64,000 bases of DNA from Williamsia limnetica (lineage in GTDB: Bacteria > Actinomycetota > Actinomycetes > Mycobacteriales > Mycobacteriaceae), in contig NZ_QJSP01000007.1 in NCBI RefSeq assembly GCF_003217475.1, positions 62,001-126,000 on the forward strand, written 5' to 3'. The stretch's first letter is position 1, and each line of letters starts with the position of its first letter. The position numbers and the translations under genes are program-made. Shown here in pieces: positions 13,641 through 15,063 of this stretch. The notes under the pieces are model-generated. The model did no database searches, was not told where the DNA came from, and saw only the letters and a program-made list of their open reading frames with translations.

Positions 13641-13731
13641 TTCCTTCGCCGGCATTACCCGGATCAGGTGTAACGGTCTCGTGGACGGAACGCGCCCCGA
13701 TCTCAGCCCGACGTCTCCTCGAGCACCCGTG
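13641..13731 (-). ncRNA. TPP (THI-box) riboswitch upstream of thiO
   Basis: Read on the minus strand it contains GGGTGCTC, GGGCTGAGATCGGGG, a variable stem, GACCGTTACACCTGATCCGG and GTAATGCCGGCGAAGGAAG. These are the conserved core of the thiamine pyrophosphate aptamer. It ends next to the AGGAGG of thiO, so control of translation initiation is likely. The divergent thiE transcript does not include it. Confidence 0.93.
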
Positions 13732-13772
13732 TGTGTATTGCTGTACAGACTACGCCGGTAGATTCTGTCCCT

Positions 13773-14468
13773 GTGACTCCCACCGATCTTTCGCGACGCA
13801 GCGACCGCTTGGCCGAAGCCCGGCTCTACCTCTGCACCGACGCCCGCCGCGAGCGCGGCGACCTGATCGACTTCGCCGAACAAGCGCTCTCTGGTGGCGT
13901 CGACATCATCCAACTCCGCGACAAGGGGTCGGCGGGCGAACGCGAGTTCGGACCGCTCGAAGCCGCGCAGGAGATCGACCTGCTCGGGGCACTGGCGGAG
14001 GTCACGGCGCGACACGGTGCCCTGTTGTCGGTCAACGACCGCGCCGACATCGCCGCGCTCACCGGCGCCGACGTCCTGCACCTGGGTCAGGACGATCTGC
14101 AGGTGGACCTCGCCCGCACGATCGTCGGCGACGACATCATCATCGGACGCTCCACCCACTCGACCTCCGAGGCCACCGCCGCCGCCACGGCACCCGGCGT
14201 CGACTACTTCTGCACCGGCCCTTGCTGGCCGACGCCGACGAAACCGGGCCGGCCCGCGCCGGGACTCGGCCTCGTCGAAGACACCGCGGCCCTGCGTACG
14301 GACCGGCCGTGGTTTGCCATCGGTGGTGTCGACGAAGCCAGGCTCCCCGAAGTCGTGGCGGCCGGCGCGAGCAGAATCGTGGTCGTCAGGGCCATCACTG
14401 CGGCCTCGGATCCACGCGCGGCAGCGCAGAGGTTGCGCCGGACACTGCTTGCGTCCTCGAAAAGCTGA
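13773..14468 (+). CDS. thiE: thiamine-phosphate synthase ThiE
   Basis: A 231-residue TIM-barrel enzyme joining HMP-PP and thiazole phosphate. Visible motifs are IIQLRDKG (~43), [33 protein letters not shown] and [18 protein letters not shown] (pyrophosphate/thiazole binding). GTG 13773 is chosen because TAGATT at 13759-13764 lies nine bases upstream, which looks like a -10 element for a leaderless message. The open frame continues further upstream into the riboswitch region without homology. It is divergent from thiO, so it escapes the two TPP switches. Confidence 0.94.
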
Positions 14469-14487
14469 GGTCTATGGTGGACCGATC

Positions 14488-14529
14488 ATGAAGCGAATTC
14501 TCGTAGTACGCACCCGTAGCGGGGTCTGA
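14488..14529 (+). CDS. 13-residue leader peptide MKRILVVRTRSGV (putative attenuator)
   Basis: A short frame after thiE encodes MKRILVVRTRSGV with Ile, Leu and three Val, two of them consecutive GTA codons, which are uncommon in this GC-rich DNA. A possible promoter is TTGCGT (14449-14454), an 18-bp spacer and TATGGT (14473-14478). The stop lies inside the first arm of a hairpin. The downstream gene is a LeuA regulatory-domain homolog, and actinobacterial leuA and ilvB genes are known to carry short branched-chain-rich leader peptides. Function inferred from this arrangement. Confidence 0.6.
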   Translation: MKRILVVRTRSGV

Positions 14530-14560
14530 TCCGACCGGCCCCCCGCTGCGGGCCGTCGTG
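14518..14560 (+). promoter_or_regulatory. possible attenuator with mutually exclusive hairpins
   Basis: AGCGGGG at 14518-14524 can pair with CCCCGCT at 14541-14547, enclosing GGTC/GACC. The second arm can instead pair with the adjacent GCGGG (CCCGCTGCGGG). A ribosome halted in the leader peptide would mask the first arm and switch the fold. The T-run further downstream is short (TTTT near 14577), so termination strength is uncertain. Confidence 0.5.
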
Positions 14561-14601
14561 CTATCTGCTGGTCATCCTTTTCTCACCGGAAGACCGCTCT
14601 C

Positions 14602-15063
14602 ATGAAAACTCTGACTTCACCTGATACCTGTTCTGATTCCTGCGCCTCGCACTTTCGAACGCCGCTGCCGCCCGAACTCCGCGCCGAGGCGACCGGCATG
14701 AGCTGGTCGACCTTCACCGAGACCTACGCCCCCACTGCCGGACCGATCCGGCTGGGCGCCTGGACCGCCTCACCGGGCCGCCATGACCTGCTCGAGTGCC
14801 AGGCCACCATCGCCACCGGCGACTCGATCGCGTCGCTCACCGCGACCGCGTCCGGCGCCATCGCGGCGCTCTCGGACATGCTTTACCGGTTGGGGTCGGG
14901 CGTCGAGATCATCCGCCTGCACCAATACCCCCACTCGGGCGGCGTCGCGACGTTCCTTCTCTGTGAGCGCGACGAACGCCGCAGCTGGTCGATGGGCAGC
15001 GGCCCGTGCGGCGAAGAGTCCGCGCTCGGCGCTCTGATCGCAGCCGCGAACCGGCTCAGCTGA
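14602..15063 (+). CDS. stand-alone 2-isopropylmalate synthase regulatory (LeuA dimer) domain protein
   Basis: A 153-residue protein matching only the C-terminal part of actinobacterial LeuA. MSWSTFTETYAPTAGPIRL (~34-52) corresponds to the linker EMWDAFAEEYLAPVRPLE. ECQATIATGDSIASLTATASGAIAALSDML and EIIRLHQYPHSGGVATFLLCE follow the leucine-binding domain, and WSMGSGPCGEESALGALIAAANRLS parallels [24 protein letters not shown]. The HMGL catalytic barrel is absent and the N-terminus is not hydrophobic. It might sense leucine or modulate full-length LeuA, which is not in this window; a degenerate paralog is the alternative. ATG 14602 has GGAAGA nine bases upstream and follows the leader peptide. 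Confidence 0.75.
   Translation: MKTLTSPDTCSDSCASHFRTPLPPELRAEATGMSWSTFTETYAPTAGPIRLGAWTASPGRHDLLECQATIATGDSIASLTATASGAIAALSDMLYRLGSGVEIIRLHQYPHSGGVATFLLCERDERRSWSMGSGPCGEESALGALIAAANRLS

Follow-up and report, generated by a model that had tools for sequence, protein, structure and literature searches.

The leuA genes of Actinobacteria are preceded by the LEU element, for which Seliverstov et al. described in 2005 a pseudoknot and a leader containing leucine codons; that work considered sensing through the codons unlikely, proposed a protein bound to the element, with helicases of the ML1624 type as candidate binder, and cited leader mutations of S. coelicolor leuA that reportedly disagreed with classical attenuation (PMC1262725). 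Leucine-rich leuA leaders are also reported for C. glutamicum (PMC4046766), and ribosome-protected uORFs before leuA and ilvB for M. abscessus (PMC4974804), in the accessible portions of these two papers. A second group of related systems, the ilvB leader attenuators of M. tuberculosis (ilvB1, PMC13236596) and C. diphtheriae (PMC5784534), has branched-chain leaders with valine codons in which the position of the ribosome decides the RNA fold, according to the accessible parts of both sources; a 2026 study described ilvB1 as ribosome-read attenuation with GUA as the regulatory codon (PMC13236596). On the protein side, the closest described structure is the C-terminal allosteric domain of LeuA (PF08502; M. 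tuberculosis LeuA, 1sr9/3fig), in which the carboxylate of leucine is bound between two helix ends, as the available portion of one source states (PMC11057210). Among the literature matches listed, with subscription papers mostly outside coverage, no description was found of a lone domain of this type or of a valine-coded version of the element.

We analysed a 64-kb window of the Williamsia limnetica genome, the whole stretch of DNA considered here, in which an earlier note had marked a promoter-like motif, a leader ORF with tandem GTA codons, overlapping hairpins and a 153-aa ORF; each was found again at the same positions, all on the + strand. The promoter-like element (14449–14478) consists of TTGCGT (14449–14454), an 18-nt spacer and TATGGT (14473–14478), and the end of its −10 hexamer lies 9 nt from the leader ATG. 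The leader ORF, read from the sequence and the ORF list, encodes MKRILVVRTRSGV followed by a stop (14488–14529), and its tandem GTA valine codons (14503–14508), the putative sensing codons, occupy positions −8 and −7 from the stop in the register compared over 62 leaders of this kind. Mutually exclusive hairpins are located between 14503 and 14596, a region that includes the Shine-Dalgarno sequence GGAAG (14588–14592) of the gene for the 153-aa protein (14602–15063). Directly upstream of the leader is a thiE-like frame (region 13731–14529), the thiE end overlapping the −35 region; a motif search within 900 nt placed thiE near the lone-domain gene in 18/62 loci, in Williamsia and some relatives. 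A cluster of tRNA-Gly and tRNA-Val(GAC), mostly with tRNA-Cys, lies near the gene in 6/56 loci (L044, L046, L048, L061, L062, L083). A functional tie to thiE or to the tRNA-Val clusters was considered and set aside, as both vary by lineage.

We regard it as probable that translation of this stand-alone LeuA-type domain is governed by a valine-reading form of the LEU element; more tentatively, the domain may restrain LeuA. Comparison between relatives argues for the leader, for three pairings termed P1, P2 and P3, for the codon register, and for homology of the RNA to the leuA element and of the protein to LeuA.

Taken as a single sequence, the window protein showed too little similarity to LeuA for assignment: it matched 0 Pfam families (the curated PF08502 score was not reached), had no match in the PDB or in PHROGs, and gave a sub-threshold E of 0.068 with the NCBIfam LeuA model and 0.24 with the LeuA of its own genome. 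The similarity became clear once relatives were included. A profile of 46 of the 62 proteins (A3), with long members trimmed to their C-terminal 150–165 residues, found M. tuberculosis LeuA in the PDB at E 1e-8 as the sole significant match, the remaining rows being two exopolyphosphatase chains at E 0.65 and 0.68. In a profile-profile comparison by hhalign with LeuA C-termini from the same genomes, the match reached 99.2% (E 2e-19) over 146 columns, spanning the entire domain and some of the linker, a remnant of which (LPP.LR.E...W..F...Y) is kept in the window protein. PF08502 was detected in 37/46 members, the window protein not being among these, and the NCBIfam LeuA model in 38/46. In a quick tree (117 of 166 rows used), a branch with SH-aLRT 100 separated all 40 stand-alone domains from all LeuA sequences in the tree. 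These results bore out the assignment made in the earlier note, and the protein is, by profile comparison, a stand-alone relative of the LeuA C-terminal regulatory domain that lacks the catalytic barrel. The predicted order of strands and helices is compatible with the twice-repeated beta-beta-beta-alpha of LeuA; an AlphaFold model made from the window, L005 and L006 proteins only was unusable (pLDDT 36.2), and the domain assignment therefore rests on sequence profiles.

Residue comparison with LeuA, from which three partial leuA rows were dropped, indicated both conservation and change at the amino-acid site. At the start of the first LeuA helix, glycine, proline and alanine are kept in 97, 79 and 97% of lone domains, with alanine replacing that proline in the window protein. 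Near the E-H-A of LeuA, the lone domains carry a signature of their own, E102, H107 and Q108 (95, 92 and 92%), followed by a loop shorter than in LeuA. The site may thus persist in the lone domain with altered specificity.

LeuA consumes 2-ketoisovalerate, the precursor of valine, and its regulatory domains meet in the dimer. By this pathway logic the lone domain might pair with LeuA and restrain it at valine shortage, which would spare 2-ketoisovalerate for valine; the suggestion of the earlier note that the domain is a trans-acting sensor or modulator of LeuA is plausible on the same grounds. Such a protein would resemble the IlvN-type subunit of acetohydroxyacid synthase in being a regulatory domain supplied in trans. 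IlvN has an ACT fold unrelated to the LeuA domain and is encoded beside its enzyme; unlike in the IlvN system, LeuA here keeps its own regulatory domain. The lone domain could instead have AHAS or an aminotransferase as its target, serve as an activator, or be a free amino-acid sensor. The departure of its pocket strand from LeuA at the three signature positions would agree with such an action, as would the fact that valine coding is common to ilvB leaders; against it, the shared origin with LeuA and the single clade make LeuA the default partner, and the neighbouring genes vary. We hold these other modes of action to be quite possible but short of probable, and retain restraint of LeuA as the preferred reading.

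We then compared the leader region across relatives. A leader could be assigned in 62/64 lone-domain loci (none for G029 and G060; that of G040 is doubtful, and for G070 the reading starts at an in-frame codon downstream of its GTG), and 58/62 loci were aligned, with G012, G016, G040 and G042 left out as divergent or carrying a long insert. The leader, its valine codons and the hairpins recur in ~25 of 31 family genera sampled, far above chance, which provided the conservation across genera that the earlier note had named as a check. Its promoter assignment held in part. A search with the plain sigma-70 consensus found 0 promoter sites in the region 14380–14700, but a TANNNT motif ends 6–10 nt before the leader start in 60/62 loci; at 5–9 nt it was present in 54/62 loci compared to 4.4% in shuffled upstream sequence. 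This spacing places the expected start of the mRNA at or beside the leader start codon, so that the mRNA carrying the leader is probably leaderless. A start at or beside the leader start codon is likewise reported for the C. diphtheriae ilvB leader in the accessible part of that study (PMC5784534).

The branched-chain character of the leader peptide also recurred in relatives, with the qualification that it codes for valine more than for leucine: VV was present in 51/62 leaders, LL in 15/62 and LLL in 0/62. Ten of the 11 leaders lacking VV keep one valine near the site, and the eleventh (G040) is unlike the others. In five loci (L054, L045, L057, L094, L063), the leader stops early inside the P1 arm, with a valine codon and the same RNA retained. 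Internal valine codons of the leaders are GTA in 97/135 cases, compared to 2/313 valine codons in the lone-domain ORFs and 111/3951 in leuA ORFs. Because GTA may also serve a pairing (P0, below), this bias does not by itself prove sensing.

The RNA pairings were assessed by alignment and pairing counts. The 5′ arm of P1, CCCGTAGCGGGG (14513–14524), lies within the leader ORF and pairs with the 3′ arm CCCCGCTGCGGG (14541–14552); 98.3% of cells in this helix are paired, and changes on both sides occur at 3 of 11 pairs. The P1 loop contains the P2 5′ strand GACCGG (14533–14538), which would form a pseudoknot with CTGGTC (14568–14573). All 6/6 pairs of P2 are present in 50/54 distinct sequences, whereas 200 shuffles gave 4.7 on average and 10 at most, and a seventh pair covaries (28/2/2/22, relatedness uncorrected); in G019 and G052 the best P2 partner found by the script lies off the usual site, G019 also having TCGGTC there. 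The P2 3′ strand doubles as the 5′ strand of P3 (14569–14596), a hairpin of GGTC/TCC with GGA/GACC that would hide the Shine-Dalgarno sequence: GGTC pairs downstream with GACC around the Shine-Dalgarno sequence in 46/52 sequences, and the Shine-Dalgarno sequence itself is paired in 45/52. For P1 and P3 together, the paired percentage and covariation score were reached by 0/500 shuffles, the cells changed on both sides by 1/500 and the number of pairs changed on both sides by 72/500; the covariation signal is thus mixed, and the Fisher and shuffle values ignore relatedness. A search of Rfam up to E 1 returned no match.

A further helix, P0, is suggested by pairing between the valine codons (5′ strand 14503–14510) and the stretch after P1, CGTGCTAT (14557–14564). 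At least 6 pairs form in 33/52 sequences, compared to a mean of 24 and a maximum of 30 with swapped partners, and the mean length is 6.6 compared to 5.7 (maximum 6.17); we take these values as suggestive only. Pseudoknot-free folding predicted P0, P1 and P3 in the free RNA, with the Shine-Dalgarno sequence hidden. An alternative hairpin, CGACCGGCCC...GGGCCGTCG (14532–14558), would exclude P1 and P2, and its inner part is present in the fold predicted for the RNA once the first 33 nt are omitted.

The arrangement of these strands relative to the leader stop points to a candidate switch. Counted from the first base of the stop, the P2 strand begins 6–7 nt downstream in 44/62 loci, so that with enough Val-tRNA a leader ribosome reaching the stop would cover the P1 5′ arm and the P2 5′ strand; GGTC would then pair with the Shine-Dalgarno region in P3, and the gene would be off. 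With Val-tRNA short, the ribosome would stall at the GTA codons, leaving the P1 5′ arm and the P2 5′ strand largely free. P1 could then form ahead of it, the P1 loop would pair with GGTC in the P2 pseudoknot, P3 would open, and the freed Shine-Dalgarno sequence would allow the domain to be made. Since P2 and P3 compete for GGTC, plentiful valine is predicted to favour P3 and the off state and scarce valine to favour P1 with P2 and the on state, valine being the putative signal. The ilvB1 report makes valine sensing by GUA plausible in Mycobacteriaceae. Points against the model are the 11 leaders lacking VV, the weak P0 signal, the mixed covariation of P1 and P3, the free-RNA fold in which the Shine-Dalgarno sequence is hidden, the S. 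coelicolor leuA leader mutations (PMC1262725) and three genomes in which a covariance model detected the domain gene's element in no case (below).

The attenuator proposed in the earlier note was retained in its alternative hairpins, which recur in relatives; no intrinsic terminator was found in the region 14380–14700, and the layout of the pairings agrees with control at the level of translation. The M. tuberculosis ilvB1 attenuator differs in having a U-tract terminator and acting on transcription, as described in the accessible part of that study (PMC13236596). The same reading of the leader could nevertheless end transcription prematurely, through Rho or pausing, in place of hiding the Shine-Dalgarno sequence. 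Rho-dependent ends have been proposed for terminator-less mycobacterial leaders, on cys operons (PMC1262725), and a switch between P1 and the alternative hairpin would permit such an end; the lack of an intrinsic terminator, the pairing of the Shine-Dalgarno sequence by P3 and the sharing of GGTC between P3 and P2 argue against it. We consider premature termination unlikely, and translation control by hiding of the Shine-Dalgarno sequence is the output that we prefer.

To relate this leader to the LEU element, we built an RNA covariance model (R1) from 58 lone-domain elements. R1 found the lone-domain element in 61 of 64 gene-bearing genomes, 58 of these having trained the model. In the three other genomes (G040, G042, G060; 2.2–2.9 Mb), the lone domain is kept and R1 detected no element, a divergent one being visible by eye in G042. 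The model also returned two or three elements in 61/73 Mycobacteriaceae genomes, and 77/77 second elements examined precede leuA (89 listed, 12 not fetched), with leuA at first masked in four cases by a longer frame or, in one of these four, by a broken leuA frame. E values for the leuA elements ranged from 1.8e-14 to 4.8e-5 among the matches listed, and the leuA of the window genome has its own separate copy of the LEU element. In 14 genomes leuA is present in a second copy that has a leucine-coded LEU element of its own (L161, L169, L179, L181, L184, L187, L190, L192, L194, L195, L196, L197, L198, L200).

The leuA leaders read M.R.LLL..R.GV, with LLL in 75/77 (one of the others having LL and one, G084, LIL) and VV in 0/76 counted. 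With one leuA leader taken per genome, codon −7 from the stop is valine in 52/62 lone-domain leaders vs leucine in 57/62 leuA leaders, codon −8 is valine in 42/62 vs leucine in 61/62, and codon −9 is leucine in 37/62 and 61/62, respectively. The last sensing codon is followed by exactly six codons before the stop in 45/62 lone-domain and 63/76 leuA leaders. The two elements thus share a leader ORF with branched-chain codons in the same register, a P1 hairpin loop in a pseudoknot with the region before the Shine-Dalgarno sequence, and a single covariance model. They differ in that the lone-domain version has valine codons and controls a lone regulatory domain instead of leuA; moreover, the base stem of the LEU element joins the sensing codons to the Shine-Dalgarno sequence, whereas a corresponding stem in the lone-domain leader, if real, would pair the codons with GCTAC upstream of P2. 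By this comparison the lone-domain leader RNA is a recoded paralogue of the LEU element, Leu-Leu-Leu having become Leu-Val-Val, and the swap of codons in one register supports an amino-acid-specific translation control read by the ribosome.

A third version was found in a class-wide search for the element, in which 88/197 genomes were positive. Eighteen further places were examined; 13 lie before leuA and five (L210, L211, L214, L216, L223) before leuB followed by ilvE, four of these five in genomes of a single distant genus and the other in G477. NCBIfam confirmed leuB and ilvE in L210 and L223, and the genes of the other three were identified from translations. The leaders of this version contain ALLVIV, ILVVV, VFVLI, VLVLI or ALIL, the last without valine, and codon identity thus follows the controlled gene in three settings.

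These comparisons bear on the possibility that a protein or ligand bound to the element, in place of a ribosome on sensing codons, does the reading, with the codon differences arising by drift. Such a reading would accommodate the mutants of the S. coelicolor leader whose behaviour reportedly departs from attenuation (PMC1262725), and the RNA around the sensing codons is indeed strongly conserved. Drift would not predict the separation of the two paralogues by codon identity at two fixed positions, or the repeated agreement between codons and controlled genes before leuB-ilvE, and we judge a codon-independent element to be distinctly unlikely. Reading of the codons by the leader ribosome is therefore preferred.

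The stand-alone homologue was present in 64/73 Mycobacteriaceae (GTDB) genomes, among 121 genomes searched, with the frame open in all 64 loci taken. In a larger set, the 46-member profile matched 356/401 Mycobacteriaceae genomes at E 4.5e-23 or better, a count made by eye from the genome table at a cut near the top scores of full-length LeuA (4.8e-23 within the family, 3.8e-25 beyond it); frame lengths were given for the best rows only, and for the remaining matches among the 356 stand-alone status was inferred from the score. Another 42 genomes gave a weaker, LeuA-like best match only, and 3 gave none. In a class-wide search for the protein (197 genomes, 15 of them Mycobacteriaceae), the 14 top stand-alone matches were all in Mycobacteriaceae, and no clear stand-alone case occurred among the matches listed for the 182 genomes outside the family, where the frames listed are at least 570 aa save three of 209–291 aa (G479, G540, G559). 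Weak matches, some with a stop, were seen at G059:C1:2184187-2184360 and in short frames of G076, G105 and G107 (same order; E 0.0015–0.009), and could be remnants or chance. A one-contig genome (G137) has a LEU element and leuA (L224) and no domain match, lone or LeuA-type, at E 1e-6.

A search of phages found no lone domain, and a search of plasmids found one copy, broken and unannotated, on a plasmid of M. intracellulare subsp. chimaera (L098 4001–4374; NZ_CP012886.2 319705–320078). That the gene is a leuA remnant in decay, with the leader RNA as the sole part of importance, is very improbable: this broken copy and the fast evolution of the protein (tree branch lengths; mean column identity of 30% for 46 proteins vs 50% for the leader in 58 loci) would fit decay, but the frames are open, matches extend through most of the 401 genomes, two invariant and ten nearly invariant residues are found in the 46 members, and a Shine-Dalgarno-like stretch is kept before the genes.

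With a functional gene as the preferred reading, a broader history can be put forward tentatively. An ancestral member of the Mycobacteriaceae may have copied leuA without its barrel and recoded the accompanying LEU element from leucine to valine, so that at valine shortage the domain would now throttle LeuA in trans at the 2-ketoisovalerate branch point; the LEU element would then be a codon-programmable pseudoknot switch of translation that can carry leucine, valine or mixed codons.

For the mechanism of the LEU element, a question since 2005, the recoded paralogue provides, in some 60 genomes, a natural codon-swap experiment that makes it directly testable. The leucine/valine pathway is of interest for drugs and for amino-acid production. 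A conserved, uncharacterised protein of most Mycobacteriaceae may link valine supply to leucine synthesis, and the recoding of its leader suggests how these bacteria may balance valine and leucine.
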